Shown here: piece after piece, positions 13,917 through 21,986 of the stretch
How positions within the stretch are numbered: position 1 is the stretch's first letter
How the letters are laid out: each line of letters opens with the position of its first letter
IMG/VR virus record: IMGVR_UViG_3300008459_000331
Location: 1-25,928 of that record
DNA: 25,928 nt
From: a virus
Strand: one strand, 5' to 3'
Program-made: the position numbers and the translations under genes
Notes under the pieces: generated by a model
Database searches by the model: none
Seen by the model: only the letters and a program-made list of their open reading frames with translations
What the model was told of the DNA's origin: nothing

Positions 13917-13953
13917 TGTGTATTACTCCATGTGTTGTGGCTTGTCTCATCAG

Positions 13954-13995
13954 TGCCACGGTAGCCATCCGTGGCAGACTGGGGTTGCCCCCAGT
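13954..13995 (-). other. Two tandem hairpins in the leader of the AAA+ gene
   Basis: In the 101-nt gap before the AAA+ start, transcribed leftward, a 7-bp hairpin with a GCAA (GNRA) loop (13978-13995) is followed by an 8-bp hairpin with a 7-nt loop (13954-13976, stem TGCCACGG). Neither has a U-tract, so they are not classic terminators. They may mark an RNA processing or stabilising element that sets the level of the ATPase module separately from the genes upstream. Confidence 0.6.
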
Positions 13996-14017
13996 TTCGA
14001 CTCATAGGGAATTTGCC

Positions 14018-15028: not shown

Positions 15029-15235
15029 TCAAAGTCCTTTCAAATGTGAGAGCCACTTGTAGACAGTGGACTGGCCGACGTTGAACTGAGCGGCAGCCTC
15101 CTTGACAGAGACACCCTCCACTCTGACGAGGCGCAGCACTTCGGCTCTCGTGGTGTCGTCGAGACCATAGGCTGGGTGGTAATCAGGGACGACTATGAGA
15201 TAGTCGGGGCTGGATGGTGTAAAGGCCAGCCGCAT
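15029..15235 (-). CDS. Small helix-turn-helix regulator
   Basis: This is a 68-residue protein. The C-terminal half is a clear helix-turn-helix: DDTTRAEVLRLVRVEGVSVK then EAAAQFNVGQSTVYKWLSHL, as in transposase-like or Trp-repressor-like HTH domains (EAA-F-V-STVYKWL). It probably binds DNA in the control region just upstream of its own operon, where paired palindromes and octamer repeats lie. The ATG at 15235 overlaps the preceding stop (TGATG) with GAGGTGG upstream; a GTG one codon earlier is also possible. Confidence 0.85.
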   Translation of the reverse strand: MRLAFTPSSPDYLIVVPDYHPAYGLDDTTRAEVLRLVRVEGVSVKEAAAQFNVGQSTVYKWLSHLKGL

Positions 15236-15546
15236 CACAGTGCCACCTCTACCGGAGCAAGGCCGGGGTTGAACTGGATGTTAAGATGAGTGACGCCATA
15301 GTGCTGCTTGAGGTCGTGACGGTCACAGACAGTGATCCGGCAGTTGTTAAGCGGGGAAGACTGGTCGACCACTACGAGTTCATGACCAACGGTGTAGTCA
15401 TAGACGGCATCAGCCTGACTGATGTAAGGGCGGCGAAGTGGCTTGACAGTGAGGGACTTGGTGTAAACCTGAGCAGCGAGGTCAGCGAGTTTGGTCCAGT
15501 TGGCCATGATAAGGGTCCATAGTTGTGTGTTAAGATTGATAAGCAT
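15235..15546 (-). CDS. Hypothetical first gene of the leftward operon
   Basis: This is a 103-residue protein. ATG 15546 lies about 39 nt after the predicted transcription start, but it lacks a strong ribosome binding site. An internal ATG at 15507 (MANWTKLADLAAQVYTKSLT) gives 90 residues and a more typical N-terminus. The C-terminal half is beta-rich with HDLKQHYGVTHLNIQFNPG. No domain is recognised. As the first gene it could be an early regulator or host-takeover factor, which is only a guess from position. Confidence 0.75.
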   Translation of the reverse strand: MLINLNTQLWTLIMANWTKLADLAAQVYTKSLTVKPLRRPYISQADAVYDYTVGHELVVVDQSSPLNNCRITVCDRHDLKQHYGVTHLNIQFNPGLAPVEVAL

Positions 15547-15591
15547 TGTCAGGACCAGACTGTTTACAAGGTAGAGTCGGCCTGAGCCATG

Positions 15592-15620
15592 ACCTTAGCC
15601 GATTCCGCTGGCCGTGTCAA
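15592..15620 (-). promoter_or_regulatory. Sigma70-like leftward promoter of the long operon
   Basis: On the minus strand TTGACA (15620-15615) is followed after 17 bp by TAAGGT (15597-15592). The start point would be near 15585, about 39 nt before the first gene. The core TTGACACGGCC is shared with the second leftward promoter at 17043-17071. The -10 box is weak (3 of 6), so an activator may be needed; the paired repeats at 15641-15674 lie at about -65 and -86. Confidence 0.6.
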
Positions 15621-15640
15621 GTTTCGGAGGGTAGGGAGGT

Positions 15641-15674
15641 TTAATCCGCGCGGATAATGGGTTAGTCCGCGCGG
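15641..15674. repeat. Two operator-like CCGCGCGG repeats, 21 bp apart
   Basis: TTAATCCGCGCGG (15641-15653) and TTAGTCCGCGCGG (15662-15674) are direct repeats with a 21-bp offset, two helical turns. The first sits in a perfect 12-bp palindrome (ATCCGCGCGGAT, 15644-15655). They lie just upstream of the leftward promoter on the same face of the helix, as expected for an activator or repressor dimer pair. Confidence 0.65.
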
Positions 15675-15773
15675 GAACTGTGTAAAGTATCTACGAATTG
15701 GGCGCGCGATAGGCGAAGTATCTTTACAGTATGGATAGTGCAAGTGTTTGATTTTGTTAGCGTTTTTTGGGGT

Positions 15774-15929
15774 GTATCTAAACTATCTACGATTTTTCAG
15801 AAGATAGACCCACTAAAAGAGCGCAACTGGAGCGGTTGTATTGTAAAGGTTTACACTCAACCGAGTTGATTGACGATTTCCGTCACGTATCTTCAAAAAA
15901 AACGTGTATATTATAGATAGTTTAGATAC
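15774..15929. repeat. 16-bp perfect inverted repeat in a TATCTA-rich tract
   Basis: GTATCTAAACTATCTA (15774-15789) and its exact complement (15914-15929) are separated by 124 bp. Related TATCTA/TAGATA words occur near 15689, 16021 and 16067, often beside GTGTAAAG. The arrangement suggests binding sites for a second protein or an unwinding region; no function is proven. Confidence 0.65.
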
Positions 15930-16110
15930 TTTACTACTACTACACACTGGTTTGATATGCTTTACACAAGCTAACCCCTTGGTTTCATTGGCTTTTCCAT
16001 TTTGGTGTAAACATGTAAACTATCTAAATTTTACACATTCCGTGTAAAGGTAGTGTAAAGGTAAAATAGATAGTTGTTTAATATCAATGACTTACTGGGT
16101 GTAAAGACAT

Positions 16111-16190
16111 AGGCCCCCGACAAATGGCACTCGATACGAGACGCTTTACACTAGAGCTACAGGCCCCCGACGTATGGCGAGTGTAACGAG
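16111..16190. repeat. 30-bp imperfect direct repeat, 50-bp offset
   Basis: The segments 16111-16140 and 16161-16190 share 22 of 30 bases, both beginning AGGCCCCCGAC, with ATGGC in the middle and ending ACGAG. An inverted GTGTAAAG copy lies between them. They are GC-rich islands inside an AT-rich tract. Confidence 0.6.
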
Positions 16191-16256
16191 CAAACTTAAC
16201 ACGCAACCGCTACCTATGCGGGCGGTGTAAAGGTGTAAAGGTGTAGAGCAGACAAC

Positions 16257-16287
16257 AAAAAACCCGCCCGGTGGTTAGCCGGGCGGG
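16257..16287 (-). terminator. Rho-independent terminator of the two-gene leftward unit
   Basis: Read leftward, a perfect 9-bp GC stem (CCCGCCCGG with its complement, 16263-16287, 7-nt loop) is followed by six U. It lies 6 nt after the stop of the 63-residue membrane protein gene, so the 16900-16294 unit ends here and the long operon needs its own promoter. Confidence 0.9.
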
Positions 16288-16293
16288 TCAGGG

Positions 16294-16485
16294 TTAGGTC
16301 AGGGCGAAGAAGAGGAACAGCAAGGTGGCGATCACGCCCATCAGCGCTTGGCCTATCATTTGCCAGTCCACCTTGCGGTGGTGAGCGGCGAGGTAACGCT
16401 GCGCGTTGTCCTGTCCGCGCTTGGAAATGTGCGTGTCGATCTTGAGCTGGCGATCGCGCAACGCGGCTTTGGTGTCGTGCTTCAT
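16294..16485 (-). CDS. Small tail-anchored membrane protein
   Basis: This is a 63-residue protein. The N-terminal 40 residues are highly charged (MKHDTKAALRDRQLKIDTHI and onward), and the C-terminal 20 form one hydrophobic helix (MIGQALMGVIATLLFLFFAL), giving a tail-anchored topology. The start has AAGGATT 7 nt upstream. It is the second gene of a short cistron ending in a strong terminator. A holin-like role is possible from size alone, but one C-terminal helix is not typical and the location is not a lysis cassette. Confidence 0.82.
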   Translation of the reverse strand: MKHDTKAALRDRQLKIDTHISKRGQDNAQRYLAAHHRKVDWQMIGQALMGVIATLLFLFFALT

Positions 16486-16511
16486 TCTGTCAATCCTTGT
16501 GTGAGAGGTGA

Positions 16512-16542
16512 GGCGGGCCCTTGTGGGGCCCGCCCTGTTTTT
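16512..16542 (+). terminator. Rightward-facing terminator-like hairpin
   Basis: GGCGGGCCC (16512-16520) pairs with GGGCCCGCC (16526-16534) and is followed on the plus strand by CTGTTTTT. It lies between two minus-strand genes yet has its U-tract only in the rightward direction. It would stop rightward transcription arriving from the repeat region, or act as a weak processing hairpin in the leftward mRNA. Confidence 0.65.
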
Positions 16543-16900
16543 AGAACTCTACCTTGGGCGCGGCGGCCTTGGCGGGCCGCGATCCGGTGCCTTTGGTGAA
16601 CTTGAGTTTCGGCTGCGGGAACTTGCCGCGGACCAGAACCAGCTCGATCATGTCGGCCTCTTTGGCCAGCTTGGCGAACACTGCCGGAGTTACGTCGGCA
16701 CCAGCCGCAAGGGGCTTTTCAAAGCCGTCGGCCCAGATGGACCAGCCGGACATGGTCAGCTTGTTGCCCTTGATCGCGTCGACCAAAGTTTTGGGGTTGC
16801 CGGCATTGTGCTTGCCGTCGGCTTTCCCCGTGATCCGGAATATATCCGAACCAGCTTTGACCGGAACGATTGCGACTTGACCTTCGAAAAGTTTAGCCAT
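16541..16900 (-). CDS. Hypothetical 119-residue protein
   Basis: The chosen start is ATG 16900 (MAKLFEGQVAIVPVKAGSDI), with AAAGGA 8 nt upstream. Upstream in-frame codons lie in the leader. The N-terminal half seems beta-rich (FRITGKADGKHNAGN), followed by GWSIWADGFEKPLAAGADVT, a helix, and a basic Lys/Pro/Ala-rich tail (KFTKGTGSRPAKAAAPKVEF). The tail would suit nucleic-acid binding. It is the first gene of a separate leftward cistron next to the repeat field, so an origin-binding or early regulatory role is worth testing. No family is recognised. Confidence 0.83.
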   Translation of the reverse strand: MAKLFEGQVAIVPVKAGSDIFRITGKADGKHNAGNPKTLVDAIKGNKLTMSGWSIWADGFEKPLAAGADVTPAVFAKLAKEADMIELVLVRGKFPQPKLKFTKGTGSRPAKAAAPKVEF

Positions 16901-17042
16901 TGTGTGTCCTTTCATATGGCATAAGGTTGATACTTCTGCCACCCATCATCGGCACTACGTGCCTAGGGTCAGGTTAACGATGTCAAAGAGCGCCGGGGCT
17001 TCCCCCGTCCCGTCCAGCGATCGTTTGCTGTTCGGTGAGATC

Positions 17043-17071
17043 TTTATCCGCTTTCCTGTCGGCCGTGTCAA
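17043..17071 (-). promoter_or_regulatory. Sigma70-like leftward promoter of the two-gene unit
   Basis: On the minus strand TTGACA (17071-17066), a 17-bp spacer and GATAAA (17048-17043, 4 of 6) form a good promoter. Transcription would start near 17036, about 136 nt before the 16900 start codon. It shares TTGACACGGCC with the promoter at 15592-15620. Confidence 0.62.
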
Positions 17072-17076
17072 CTGCT

Positions 17077-17105
17077 AATTTATAAAAATCTGCGACAATT
17101 TATAA
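17077..17105. repeat. AATTTATAA pair at UP-element position
   Basis: AATTTATAA occurs at 17077-17085 and 17097-17105, exactly 20 bp apart, just upstream of the -35 box of the leftward promoter. The first copy falls where an UP element would contact RNA polymerase alpha subunits. A related ATTTTATAAC lies at 17248-17257. Confidence 0.5.
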
Positions 17106-17341
17106 CAAAAAACGCGCGCCGCGCGGTCGCAGGCAGGCATGGGGGGTGGGGGGTTGGACAGCGGTCGCGCGGCCCCCCGCTATTGTAGTAAACCTCTTAC
17201 AACACAACCCAAAAATACCAATCTTTACACCTGTACATCACCCGAACATTTTATAACACCCCTGCCAAAAATTTTCCCGGCCCAAAAAACCAAATCTTTA
17301 CACTATTGACCGCCCCCGCCTCCAAGAGTTACCATCCCCCC
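17106..17341. other. Gap before the rightward genes with GC island and octamers
   Basis: There is no credible ORF. A GC-rich island (17111-17180) holds two runs of six G (17141-17146, 17148-17153), a run of six C (17173-17178), and the octamer GCGGTCGC twice (17123, 17161). After it the sequence turns AT-rich and has inverted GTGTAAAG copies at 17223 and 17296. A TATAAC at 17252 could be a rightward -10 box, but I find no good -35 at the right distance. Confidence 0.5.
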
Positions 17342-17818
17342 ATGTACATGAGCCCTGTTCACACCAAATGGACCGATCGGTTCGCCTTTGAACTCGCCCT
17401 TCTCATGGAAGGCAGCGGGGAAAAGCTCGACGAACTGCTGGATCGGCACGAGTTCGAGGCATCAGACCTCCTCACCTTCAAGAACGACGCCACTTTTCTC
17501 AAGAAAGTGGAGGCTTACAGGGAGGAAGTACGCACCAAGGGCCTCACATTCAGGGTCAAGGCGCGTGCACAGGCCGAAGAACTGCTCAAGACCAGCTGGA
17601 TTCTCATCCACGACCCCATTGTGAGCCCCGCGGTGAAGGCCGACCTCATCAAAAGCACGGTCAAGTGGGCCGGACTGGACACAACCCCCGCCGGAGAGGG
17701 TCAGAACAACGCCGGTGGCGTCACGATCAGCATCAATTTGGGTGGACAGACGCTGGATGTGACCGCCAAACCCGCCCCGACCGAGGTCGAGGACGCCGAT
17801 GTCGTCGAAGAAGATTGA
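17342..17818 (+). CDS. Terminase small subunit (probable)
   Basis: This is a 158-residue protein from ATG 17342 (MYMSPVHTKWTDRFAFELAL). An upstream TTG at 17306 has no ribosome binding site and is disfavoured; the ATG site is also weak (AAGAG about 13 nt upstream). The central region is helical (LDELLDRHEFEASDLLTFKN, then FRVKARAQAEELLKTSWILI), as in small terminases that bind packaging sites. The C-terminus (GGVTISINLGGQTLDVTAKP then an acidic tail) suits oligomer and large-subunit contacts. Its place directly before the large subunit is the main support. Confidence 0.85.
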   Translation: MYMSPVHTKWTDRFAFELALLMEGSGEKLDELLDRHEFEASDLLTFKNDATFLKKVEAYREEVRTKGLTFRVKARAQAEELLKTSWILIHDPIVSPAVKADLIKSTVKWAGLDTTPAGEGQNNAGGVTISINLGGQTLDVTAKPAPTEVEDADVVEED

Positions 17819-17972: not shown

Positions 17973-19359
17973 TATTTCCTACACACCCACCCCTACGGTC
18001 ACCCGGTTCATGCAATCGGACAAGAAGATGCGGGTCATCATGGGTCCTGTCGGCTCCGGCAAGTCCGTGGCCTGCTGCTTTGAGATTATCCGGCGTGCCA
18101 GCCAGCAAAAGCCCAATGCCAATGGCATCCGCAAGACCCGCTGCGCTGTGGTCCGCGAAACTGTCCGCCAACTCTCCGATACCACGATCAAAACCTTCCT
18201 CGACTGGTTCCCTCCGGGGGTCTGTGGTCACTTCATGCGCACCACCAAGACCTACTTCTTCAAGGTGGGCGATGTGGAGTGCGAGATCATGTTCCGCGCG
18301 CTGGACGACGCGGATGACGTGGCCAACCTCAACTCTCTCGAACTGACCTTCGCGTGGTTCAACGAGTGCAGGGACATCCACCCGGATATTGTGGACGCGA
18401 TGTCCAAACGTGTGGGTCGTTTCCCCTCAGCCAAGGATGGCGGGGCAACGTGGCACGGGATGTGGGCGGATACCAACCCGCCGACCATGGACACGTGGTG
18501 GTTCTACCAGATGGAGAAGATCGACCCGAAGGATGGGGTCAGCCCCAACAACAACGGGTGGGATGTGTTCAAGCAGCCGTCGGGGCGCAGCCCCTACGCG
18601 GAGAACATCGAGAACCTGCCGGAAGGGTACTACGACACCCAAGGCCGATCGGAGGAGTACGTCAGGGTCTTCATCGACGGGGAGTACGGGCTTAGCCTTG
18701 CCGGCACGCCGGTGTTCAAATACTTCCGGCCGGACTACCACATGGCCAAGATGCCGCTCAAAGCCATCACCAATGGCACGAGACCGATTATCGTGGGGAT
18801 GGACCTCGGGCTCACGCCCGCGGCCGTCATCGGACAGCAGGACCCACGAGGCCGGGCGCTGGTGCTCGCAGAGGCGGTCAGTTACGACATGGGCATCCAG
18901 AGGTTCATGCGCACGGTGCTCAAGCCCCTGCTCTACGAGAAGTTCGCCGGGGCGCCAATCATCATCGTGGTTGACCCAGCCGGTACACAGCGAGCCCAGA
19001 CCGACGAGCGCTCCGCGGTCGACATCATCAAGGCCGAAGGGTTCAGGGTCATGCCCGCCCGGACCAACAACATCACACCGCGCATCGCCGCGGTCGACGA
19101 CTACCTCATGCGACAGGTCGACGGTGATCCGGGGTTCCTCATGGACCCCAGCTGCATCCGGCTTAAGGCAGCTCTGATGGGCGGCTACCGGTTCAAGAAG
19201 AACGGCGACGGGTTGGAGAAGTCGGGCGATGCCGGCAAGCACAGCCACATCGGTGACGCGATTAGCTATCTGATGATGCACATCGGCAGTCTCGACAGTG
19301 GCGCGATGATGCACACGCGGCGAGAGGTGAAGCGAGTTGACGCCAAAGGGTGGGCATGA
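17962..19359 (+). CDS. terL: Terminase large subunit
   Basis: This 465-residue packaging motor has ATPase and nuclease domains. Walker A is GPVGSGKS (28-35) and Walker B is LELTFAWFNE (126-135, catalytic E135). The RNase-H-like nuclease has VGMDLGL (D281), VVDPAG (D338) and HIGDAISYL (D432) as its three acidic sites. Length and motif order are normal for phage TerL. The start overlaps the small ORF upstream. It cuts concatemeric DNA and drives it into the prohead through the portal encoded at 19959-21986. A terminator follows 54 nt after the stop. Confidence 0.96.
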   Translation: MPLDISYTPTPTVTRFMQSDKKMRVIMGPVGSGKSVACCFEIIRRASQQKPNANGIRKTRCAVVRETVRQLSDTTIKTFLDWFPPGVCGHFMRTTKTYFFKVGDVECEIMFRALDDADDVANLNSLELTFAWFNECRDIHPDIVDAMSKRVGRFPSAKDGGATWHGMWADTNPPTMDTWWFYQMEKIDPKDGVSPNNNGWDVFKQPSGRSPYAENIENLPEGYYDTQGRSEEYVRVFIDGEYGLSLAGTPVFKYFRPDYHMAKMPLKAITNGTRPIIVGMDLGLTPAAVIGQQDPRGRALVLAEAVSYDMGIQRFMRTVLKPLLYEKFAGAPIIIVVDPAGTQRAQTDERSAVDIIKAEGFRVMPARTNNITPRIAAVDDYLMRQVDGDPGFLMDPSCIRLKAALMGGYRFKKNGDGLEKSGDAGKHSHIGDAISYLMMHIGSLDSGAMMHTRREVKRVDAKGWA

Positions 19360-19412
19360 TACATAAAGTGTACCGGCGGATTCCCCTCCCTCGTCCGCTG
19401 CCTGCTCGACCT

Positions 19413-19441
19413 AACCCCTCCGGCCCACCCCCGGAGGGGTT
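19413..19441 (+). terminator. Rho-independent terminator-like hairpin after terL
   Basis: AACCCCTCCGG (19413-19423) pairs perfectly with CCGGAGGGGTT (19431-19441) over 11 bp with a 7-nt loop, followed by a modest U-rich TCTCTTG. It lies just before a new promoter. Confidence 0.7.
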
Positions 19442-19445
19442 TCTC

Positions 19446-19474
19446 TTGCTAGATGCGCGCAGCCGGGTTATATT
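19446..19474 (+). promoter_or_regulatory. Sigma70-like rightward promoter of the head genes
   Basis: TTGCTA (19446-19451), a 17-bp spacer and TATATT (19469-19474, 5 of 6) form a good promoter. The start point would be near 19481, 20 nt before the next gene. Placed right after a terminator, it lets portal, scaffold and capsid genes be expressed separately from the terminase genes. Confidence 0.62.
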
Positions 19475-19500
19475 CTGTCAACTTGCAAGGGAGGTCCGTC

Positions 19501-19719
19501 ATGGACAAGAAGAAATCACTGGCGCCGAAGAAGTCCCCGCGCCCTATGGACGCAGAGACGGGACGCGCAAATGCGACCCTGACTCGCGCCATGGGCGGTG
19601 CTGCGGCACGTGAGCGGCAGGATGCCGAGGCCGGGCGCATGGACGCTAAGCCTAAGGCCAAAGCCACCAAGGCTGGCATGAAGTCCAGCCCGCGCCCCAA
19701 GAAAAACCCGATGTACTGA
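19501..19719 (+). CDS. Small basic Lys/Pro/Ala-rich protein
   Basis: This is a 72-residue protein from ATG 19501 with GGGAGG 6 nt upstream; the frame continues upstream, but that part overlaps the promoter. The product is very basic and probably disordered, with the segment KKSLAPKKSPRPMDAETGRA near the start and SSPRPKKNP near the end. The SPRP-K motif appears twice (KKSPRP, SSPRPKK). Such proteins could bind DNA or be minor virion proteins, and position next to the portal favours a head role. No family is recognised. Confidence 0.82.
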   Translation: MDKKKSLAPKKSPRPMDAETGRANATLTRAMGGAAARERQDAEAGRMDAKPKAKATKAGMKSSPRPKKNPMY

Positions 19720-19729
19720 GGAGTTCACC

Positions 19730-19945
19730 ATGGCACCGAAGACCCCAATCAAGACCGGTCGCAAGCCGACCACCGTCAACAAAGATAACTTCGGCACCGG
19801 CTACGCGAAGATGGTGACCGCAAACAAGCTGGACAAAGCTGGTTTGCCGGGTGCCGCGAAGAAGATGTCGCGGGAGGCGCTGGACATGATGGACAAGGGA
19901 TCGCACCGCCTGCAGAAAGACTTTGGCAAGCGCAAGAAGCCGTAA
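19730..19945 (+). CDS. Small basic head-region protein
   Basis: This is a 71-residue basic protein (MAPKTPIKTGRKPTTVNKDN to DFGKRKKP) with GAGGAG 6 nt upstream. The middle is helical (AGLPGAAKKMSREALDMMDK), with lysine-rich ends. Like the gene before it, it resembles small basic proteins next to the portal in some marine podovirus-like phages, which is a memory-based comparison. Function is unknown. Confidence 0.83.
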   Translation: MAPKTPIKTGRKPTTVNKDNFGTGYAKMVTANKLDKAGLPGAAKKMSREALDMMDKGSHRLQKDFGKRKKP

Positions 19946-19958
19946 ATAGGAACTCACT

Positions 19959-21986
19959 ATGGCAGGTCTGACAATTCTCCGCGTCGTTGGTAACGATGAG
20001 CTTGTGCGCCAAGAGCGCGAACAGGCAGAGCGTGAACTCGCAGCGCGGCAGAGCAGCCCCGTCATGGTGGGTTTGACAGCGCACCTCAAGGAGTGCTGGG
20101 ACGCAGCGCGCATCTCGCGTGACCCGATCACCGACATCATGCTCAAGGCCATGCGCCAGCGCAACGGTGAGTACGAGGCCGACAAGCTCCAGCGCATCCA
20201 AGAGCAGGGTGGCTCGGAAGTCTTCATGATGATTACCGAGGTCAAGTGCCGCGCTGCGGAGAGCTGGCTGCGGGACATCCTGCTCGACAACGGCACGCCA
20301 CCGTGGGACATCGTGCCCACACCTATCCCAGACCTGTCGCCCAAAGAGGCGGAGGAGCTGCAGATGGCCTTCGCCGAGCGCGTGATGGAGATCGTCCAGT
20401 CGTCAGGGCAGGCTCCGAGCAAGAGCCAGATCGGCGAGCTTAAGGAGATGGTCGGGCAGGAGTTCCGGTTCAAAATCCTGCAGGCGGCGCAGAATCGCGT
20501 CGACAAGATGCGGATCAAGATCGAGGACCAGTTCGCTCAGGGCGGCTGGTCGGACTCGTTTAACGAGTTCATTACCGACCTCGTGACTTTCCCGGCAGCC
20601 TTCATCAAGGGGCCGATCGTTCGGCGCCAGCGGTACCTCAAGTGGGAGGGCAGCAAGCTCGTCCCCGGCGAGCGCATTGCGCCTGAGTATGAGCGGGTCA
20701 GCCCGTTCAACATCTACCCCGAGCCGGGCATCACCCGGATCAACGATGGCTACATCTTCGAGTACCACGAACTGACCCGCACCCAGCTGGCCGATCTCAT
20801 CGGTGTGCCGGGCTACGACGACGCTGCCGTCCGCAAGGTGCTCGAAGTGGGCAACACCCAGTCATGGGTGCAGGAGTGGCAGAAGGACTCACGCGAGGAG
20901 GAGGAGCGCAAGTTCCACACCGAGCTGCGCCCGACCGAGGTCTACGACACGCTGGAGTTCTGGGGCAAGATCAGCGGCCGGATGCTGCGCGAGTGGGGCA
21001 TGACCGAGGAGGAAGTGCCTGACGTCGACCGCGAGTACGACGCCAACGTCTGGACCGTGGGGAACTATATCATCAAGGCGGTGCTCAACTACGACCCGCT
21101 CGGCGAGAAGCCCTACGCCAAGACCAGCTTCATTAAGCAGCCCGGCGCCTTCTGGGGCAAGGCCATTCCCGAGATCATCGAGGACATCCAGAACGTCTGC
21201 AACGCAGCAGCCCGGGCTCTGGTCAACAACATGGCGATCGCCTCCGGGCCGCAGGTCGAGGTTAACCTCGAACGTCTGCCTCCCAACGAGGACATCACCC
21301 AGCTGCAGCCGTGGAAAATCTGGCAGGTGATGAACGACCCGCTGGGTTCGTCAGCTCCGGCAGTGCGGTTCAACCAGCCCAACGACAACGCCAACACGCT
21401 GGTGGGGGTCTACGACCGCTTCTCACGCATGGCGGACGACCACAGCGGCATCCCGGCCTATATCTACGGCGACACCAACGTGCAGGGGGCAGGACGCACC
21501 GCGTCGGGCCTCTCCATGCTGATGGGCTCCGCGGGCAAGGGCATCCGGCAGGTGGTGATGCACATCGACAGCGACGTGCTCAAGACCATCGTGCAGCGCC
21601 AGTTCGTTTACAACATGCGCTACGATCCGGATGAGTCGATCAAGGGCGATGCACAGGTCGTTGCCAAGGGCGCGGTTAACCTCGCTGTCAAGGAGACGGT
21701 CAACGTCCGCCGCGTGGAGTTCCTCAACGCCACGGCCAACGAGTTCGACATCAGCATCATCGGGCCGCAGGGTCGCGCCGCGCTGCTGCGTGAGGTCGCT
21801 AAGGGGCTGCAGATGTCGGTCGACGACATCGTCCCGTCGCGTGAGAAGCTGGCGATGAACGAGCGGCTCGCTGCTGCATCGCAGCAGATGCCGGCACCCG
21901 GGGGCGGGCAGCCCGCGGCACAGAACACGGACCTCGCCGGTGCGCCGGCCGGTGGTACCAATCTCATAAACGGGGGGCCGCAGTGA
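19959..21986 (+). CDS. Portal (head-tail connector) protein
   Basis: This 675-residue protein forms the ring through which DNA is packaged. Supporting segments are the stem/wing-like ERVSPFNIYPEPGITRINDG, the FIKQPGAFWGKAIPEIIEDI helix region, and the conserved block DDHSGIPAYIYGDTNVQGAG then RTASGLSMLMGSAGKGIRQV (about 490-530). The size fits podovirus-type portals. The start has AGGAA 6 nt upstream. The C-terminus is Gly/Pro/Ala-rich (APGGGQPAAQNTDLAGAPAG), as often seen in portal tails. Its stop overlaps the next start. Confidence 0.92.
   Translation: MAGLTILRVVGNDELVRQEREQAERELAARQSSPVMVGLTAHLKECWDAARISRDPITDIMLKAMRQRNGEYEADKLQRIQEQGGSEVFMMITEVKCRAAESWLRDILLDNGTPPWDIVPTPIPDLSPKEAEELQMAFAERVMEIVQSSGQAPSKSQIGELKEMVGQEFRFKILQAAQNRVDKMRIKIEDQFAQGGWSDSFNEFITDLVTFPAAFIKGPIVRRQRYLKWEGSKLVPGERIAPEYERVSPFNIYPEPGITRINDGYIFEYHELTRTQLADLIGVPGYDDAAVRKVLEVGNTQSWVQEWQKDSREEEERKFHTELRPTEVYDTLEFWGKISGRMLREWGMTEEEVPDVDREYDANVWTVGNYIIKAVLNYDPLGEKPYAKTSFIKQPGAFWGKAIPEIIEDIQNVCNAAARALVNNMAIASGPQVEVNLERLPPNEDITQLQPWKIWQVMNDPLGSSAPAVRFNQPNDNANTLVGVYDRFSRMADDHSGIPAYIYGDTNVQGAGRTASGLSMLMGSAGKGIRQVVMHIDSDVLKTIVQRQFVYNMRYDPDESIKGDAQVVAKGAVNLAVKETVNVRRVEFLNATANEFDISIIGPQGRAALLREVAKGLQMSVDDIVPSREKLAMNERLAAASQQMPAPGGGQPAAQNTDLAGAPAGGTNLINGGPQ

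Follow-up and report, generated by a model that had tools for sequence, protein, structure and literature searches.

A conserved array of short repeated words around an AT-rich element as a predicted replication origin and divergent control region of uncultured phages

The viral DNA analysed here (the window, which is the entire 25.9-kb record) carries a dense array of the octamer GTGTAAAG, hereafter the A box, and judging from the layout of the words and their surroundings this array is rather likely to be part of a replication origin combined with an early/late divergent control region. A total of 12 A boxes were counted in the window, against 0.33 expected from dinucleotide shuffles, none of 100 of which reached 12. 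The ten exact copies that the earlier note had placed within 15680–17303 were recovered in full, against a mean of 0.05 in shuffles of that region, and one further copy starts at 15217. When up to one mismatch is allowed, 18 copies were observed against 1.6 in the shuffled region. The non-coding core alone holds eight exact A boxes, against 0.05 in shuffles of the same AT-richer stretch. The copies fall into two groups, a dense non-coding one of eight at 15680–16240 and another of two, at 17223 and 17296, immediately 5′ of terS; the gap between them contains two leftward genes (16294–16485 and about 16541–16900) with no exact copies, together with an intrinsic terminator. The features of the region are shown in Table 1.

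Table 1. Coordinates of the predicted features in and around the array (positions of the window).
Feature	Coordinates	Strand	Basis or remark
69-aa HTH_23 protein, candidate regulator	15029..15238	-	Profile match; not obligate
A box within gene 15029-15238	15217..15224	+	Exact word
First gene of leftward operon	15235..15546 (likely start ATG 15508)	-	Conserved in core and middle relatives
Non-coding core, divergent control region / predicted origin	15547..16253		707 bp, 43% GC; word enrichment against shuffles
A box GTGTAAAG	15680..15687	+	Exact word
b box TAGATA	15688..15693	-	Offset comparison
IHF consensus site AATCAAACACTTG, A-tract upstream	15741..15753	-	One of the window's two WATCAANNNNTTR matches
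b-box tandem pair, 9 bp apart	15775..15789	-	Offsets kept in 15 and 12 of 16 relatives
Predicted DNA unwinding element: A-tract + TATATTATAGATAGTTTAGATAC + ACTACTACTAC	15888..15947		Lowest duplex stability in the window (60-bp scale)
b-box tandem pair within unwinding element	15914..15928	+	Inverted relative to the 15775 pair
A box	15960..15967	-	Exact word
Degenerate IHF-type site AACCAAGGGGTTA, one mismatch	15972..15984	-	Mismatch read off the sequence
Conserved block AACCCCTTGGTTTCATTGG holding the degenerate IHF-type site	15973..15991		Relatives compared
A box	16042..16049	+	Exact word; position kept in 15/16 relatives
A box	16053..16060	+	Exact word; relatives' offsets compared
b box beside right IHF site	16067..16072	+	Offset comparison
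IHF consensus site TATCAATGACTTA, b box before it	16082..16094	+	Second of the two consensus matches
A box	16099..16106	+	Exact word; relatives' offsets compared
A box	16144..16151	-	Exact word
Two A boxes head-to-tail	16225..16240 (16225-16232, 16233-16240)	+	Exact words; relatives' offsets compared
Intrinsic terminator at the end of the two leftward genes that lie right of the array	16261..16289	-	
A box 5′ of terS	17223..17230	-	Exact word
A box adjoining terS promoter -35 hexamer	17296..17303	-	Exact word
Conserved sigma-70-type terS promoter: TTGACC (17306-17311), 18 bp, TACCAT (17330-17335)	17306..17335	+	Aligned relatives
Putative terminase small subunit gene terS, so named from its position before terL	17342..17818	+	ATG at predicted transcription start; homologues in relatives

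Since the window is the whole record, genome-wide octamer counts were taken from longer relatives found via terL. The earlier note had raised the prospect of copies spread equally elsewhere, or of an array without conservation in related phages, and neither was encountered: 11 of 12 A boxes fall inside the counterpart region in G001 (51.6 kb), all eight in G002 (60 kb) and nine of ten in G004 (57.3 kb, apparently a complete genome since its ends repeat), and about 25 loci retain the array. De novo word counts over the relatives revealed that both the A word and the second word described below (the b box) differ between lineages. The core group uses GTGTAAAG, the middle group GTGTTAAG together with GTGTAAAG, and the far relatives (terL about 78%) TGTAAAGTT/TGTCAAGTT, that is TGT[A/C]AAGTT, while the b word is TAGATAGTT or, in far relatives, TAGATTGTT. 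With their words altered, the far relatives retain the A-tract, the 9-bp b repeats and the IHF-type blocks. The A boxes at 16042–16060, 16099 and 16225–16240, and one variant left of the AT-rich element, are often retained and many others move. A DNA search against annotated phages gave no match, a search against plasmids gave just one trivial 28-bp match, and to our knowledge neither word fits any described element. For terL, one match came from a bacterial genome, an actinobacterial MAG, and no host was assigned from it.

The octamer array of the earlier note stands; the second word, the predicted unwinding element and the IHF consensus sites were missed there. The second word, TAGATAGT, has four exact copies in the core against 0.02 in shuffles, and the b boxes often form 9-bp tandem pairs at near-fixed positions. 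With offsets measured from an AT-rich anchor at 15894, seven of the eight b boxes hold near-fixed offsets in 10–15 of 16 relatives. The two pairs of opposite strand in Table 1 face each other, and their 16-bp arms are perfectly complementary.

Duplex stability was calculated by the nearest-neighbour method at 60-bp and 120-bp scales, and the counterpart of 15888–15947 is the global stability minimum in five near-complete relatives (G001, G002, G009, G010 and G004). In G004 a neighbouring segment about 200 bp off nearly ties with it, and at the 120-bp scale the stability of that segment is slightly the lower of the two. In each of these near-complete relatives the stability minimum lies at or beside the AT-rich element. 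The triplet run ACTACTACTAC was also considered as a DnaA-trio, a reading that was dropped as the run is not conserved, and no DnaA box (TTATCCACA, up to one mismatch), such as a DnaA-dependent origin carries, was found in the window region, though one is present in some far relatives. In all five relatives analysed, cumulative GC skew reaches its extremes no more than about 0.6–5 kb from the array. This measure is confounded with the change of gene direction, for the gene-orientation switch falls at the array's location; skew and AT-richness are also compatible with a divergent promoter region, which counts against an origin.

Perfect matches to WATCAANNNNTTR, quoted as the IHF consensus in PMC10380432, number exactly two in the window, both in the core, against 0.03 in core shuffles. 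The same concentration, as expected of an IHF-assisted region, was observed in the relatives, with 2/2 copies in the region in G001, 3/3 in G002 and 3/4 in G004. In addition, a block AAGTGGTTGATTTCATTGG recurs about 200–230 bp apart around the AT-rich element in many relatives, and its other strand contains a perfect WATCAANNNNTTR and a flanking A/T run, so that IHF is the economical explanation of the block and these are predicted IHF sites. Blocks of this type were picked up by a pattern scan in at least 120 viral stretches, mostly outside long ORFs, whereas a reversed control gave 17; a literature text search on the IHF-type block returned nothing relevant. The block had also been entertained as a new element, an idea dropped in view of the perfect consensus with its A/T run and of several adjoining ORFs of ~400 aa. 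Several IHF-type block copies lie just 3′ of such ORFs, which could be candidate integrases. Viral DNA of 33–67% GC (contigs L133–L212) is strongly enriched in the IHF-type block AASYSVTTGRTTTCATTGG, which often lies close to the least stable DNA. IHF also has roles in transcription and integration.

The genes around the array were examined for candidate binders. The HTH_23 protein, given as 15029–15235 and suggested as a binder in the earlier note, turned out not to be obligate, as neither sequence nor ORF scan found it in the array-bearing L015, L021 and L022, and it was dropped as the A-box binder because it was not found in several relatives retaining the array. The other suggested binder, at about 16541–16900, has a likewise patchy distribution among relatives. 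It belongs to a small protein family, MAK-[FY]xGxVSI, of 95–119 aa, whose window member (16544–16900, minus strand) lies right of the array, with far relatives carrying members on both sides of theirs (L063, 7314–7595 and 8679–8972; L080). Neither this 119-aa protein nor the 103-aa product of the first leftward gene has a Pfam match, and their structure models are of low confidence (pLDDT 60 for the 119-aa family and 55 for the first gene). Replication genes, namely prim-pol/DUF927 and an SNF2 helicase, are present. Further left, a Type II hammerhead ribozyme, scoring 40 bits against Rfam RF02276 and thereby exceeding the gathering threshold, was located at 13935–14002 on the minus strand, between a MoxR-like ATPase gene and gene 14018, and also in relatives L015, L017 and L031.

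On the right side, the terS promoter of far relatives reads TTGACA with CTATATT-like −10s, and in the core group one A box ends 2 bp 5′ of the terS −35; since it abuts this conserved element, the A boxes probably act in transcription too. The A boxes are also oriented, with 56 plus and 15 minus copies around the AT-rich element and 14 of 14 minus 5′ of terS, counts from related loci for which p-values overstate the bias. The ATG of terS coincides with the predicted transcription start in aligned relatives, which suggests a leaderless mRNA. A G-run/C-run block (GGGGGGTGGGGGGTTGGAC ... GGCCCCCCG) at 17139–17182, about 160–200 bp 5′ of terS, is kept in the core and many far relatives, and could be a hairpin, a packaging signal or a termination signal.

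Of the three readings offered in the earlier note, the iteron-type origin is well supported as far as an origin-type architecture goes, with a predicted unwinding element, predicted IHF sites and tandem or inverted 9-bp repeats kept in relatives; an operator array is plausible for some A boxes, given the one 2 bp from the terS −35 and the orientation bias; and a part of a phage-specific promoter is not upheld, there being neither a −10 at a fixed A-box spacing nor a fixed A-to-b spacing. Well-studied plasmid iterons are repeats of 17–22 bp bound by a known Rep protein. The iteron origins of pSC101 and R6K share with the window region repeated initiator-type sites, an AT-rich unwinding element, IHF sites and compactness (PMC4980987), but differ in that two short words (8 and 9 bp, both enriched and conserved) occur here in both orientations, in a compact non-coding region with the stability minimum at or beside the element. 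No cognate initiator (Rep) was recognised among the genes scanned, and membership of the iteron family is therefore not claimed. The oriL/oriR of phage SPP1 likewise combine direct repeats with an AT-rich unwinding element, and oriR is intergenic (PMC6316719), whereas SPP1 uses gp38/gp39/gp40, none of which was recognised here; the likeness claimed is one of kind, not of sequence. E. coli oriC also has an unwinding element, an IHF site and multiple 9-bp initiator boxes, while the boxes of the window region are GTGTAAAG and TAGATAGTT in place of DnaA boxes. By analogy, repeated short sites with an unwinding element and IHF sites beside a replication operon match known origins in kind.

The strongest rival, which we hold unlikely though far from negligible, is pure transcription control. 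On this view a phage regulator would use the A boxes as its operators, both to repress the early genes read leftward and to act at the late promoter of terS, while the AT-rich element and the IHF sites would serve promoters and the origin would lie elsewhere. The A box directly 5′ of the terS −35, the orientation bias, the A boxes that reach into leftward coding DNA and the HTH gene adjoining the array are all in its favour. It accounts poorly for the near-fixed b boxes, one tandem pair of which lies where the genome's duplex is least stable, and for the scarcity of promoter-like sites in the region (three against 1.8 expected) with no −10 spaced from the A boxes; moreover, the layout of AT-rich element, IHF-type sites and repeats recurs in relatives with unrelated words.

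Stoperators of the mycobacteriophage type, at which a repressor blocks promoters and stops elongation, are a very improbable identity for the A boxes. Like those of Cluster A mycobacteriophages, the A boxes are asymmetric, with lineage-specific words and an orientation that partly follows transcription, and in the far variant, TGTCAAG, the word overlaps the terS promoters' −35 hexamer, TTGACA. However, published stoperators are spread across the genome (PMC6550527, PMC9283540), whereas nearly all A boxes sit in one region of about 2 kb, and no immunity repressor was identified. Just as little probability attaches to the A boxes being −35 elements of phage or host promoters, even though CTTTACA resembles the sigma-70 −35 hexamer and CTTGACA is the terS −35 in far relatives, because a scan for −10 elements 15–19 bp 3′ of the A boxes, where a sigma-70 promoter array would have them, gave no clear peak, and head-to-tail copies are only 8 or 11 bp apart. 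The variant with the b box as −10 was dropped, as the A-to-b distance is not fixed. Slighter still is the chance of pac/cos packaging sites for the small terminase, for though the region adjoins terS/terL, the copies extend over 2 kb, are dense at the AT-rich element and in the opposite operon, and change their words while terS is conserved. An artefact of chance or composition, suggested by the region being AT-richer than the genome, can be set aside: shuffling of the region itself and the conservation of the array already rule it out.

Under the preferred reading, a combined origin and divergent control region, IHF would bend the DNA at sites on either side of 15888–15947, and a phage initiator would bind the near-fixed 9-bp b boxes, notably the inverted pairs at 15775–15789 and 15914–15928, and then open the A-tract/AT-rich element, after which the prim-pol/DUF927 primase-helicase, the SNF2 helicase and PolA might be loaded. 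A phage-encoded sequence-specific protein would bind the more mobile, oriented A boxes, coat the origin and extend to the late terS promoter through the A box abutting its −35, and so might couple replication to the switch in transcription from the leftward early genes to the rightward late ones. More speculatively, and we hold this rather doubtful, the region might be a two-code origin, with a conserved IHF/unwinding chassis, rigid initiator boxes and, separate from these, mobile and oriented boxes through which a second phage protein would link firing to the late promoter, both codes being rewritten between lineages (GTGTAAAG, GTGTTAAG, TGTCAAGTT, AAAAGGTAG, TGTTACGA). In such a two-code origin, the rewriting possibly keeps co-infecting relatives from firing each other's origins.

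Three cultured relatives, Rollin, KPP25 and RHph_TM3_14A, share the helicase, polymerase and nuclease genes, and each has a non-coding stability minimum with an IHF-type block. In Rollin, the divergent region combines the stability minimum, an IHF site and AAAAGGTAG-type palindromes, and the phage has its own repeat, AAAGGTAG, in ten copies; palindromic 25-bp repeats AAAAGGTAGYAACTTRCTACCTTTT were also observed in its divergent region (L113, 1–560 / record end). KPP25 likewise has its own repeat word, with the stability minimum of its first 50 kb at 26.49 kb in a non-coding gap holding eight copies of TGTTACGA, and this gap lacks a perfect IHF consensus and holds instead a similar block, AAGTGGTTGTTTCTTGA. 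Within the first 45 kb of RHph_TM3_14A, both IHF sites and the stability minimum fall in a non-coding gap at 19355–20125, and no strong word cluster was found in this phage. The words of these phages are unrelated to GTGTAAAG, and the records viewed carry no origin annotation; as read from the sequences, the chassis is kept across the cultured relatives and the words are not.

The analysis thus provides a precise, testable prediction of an origin and early/late switch for widespread uncultured phages of roughly 57–60 kb, and the matching place in the cultured KPP25, Rollin and RHph_TM3_14A makes the region accessible to such tests. If the prediction is true, these phages would have an origin in which the IHF/unwinding chassis is kept and the recognition words are swapped by lineage.
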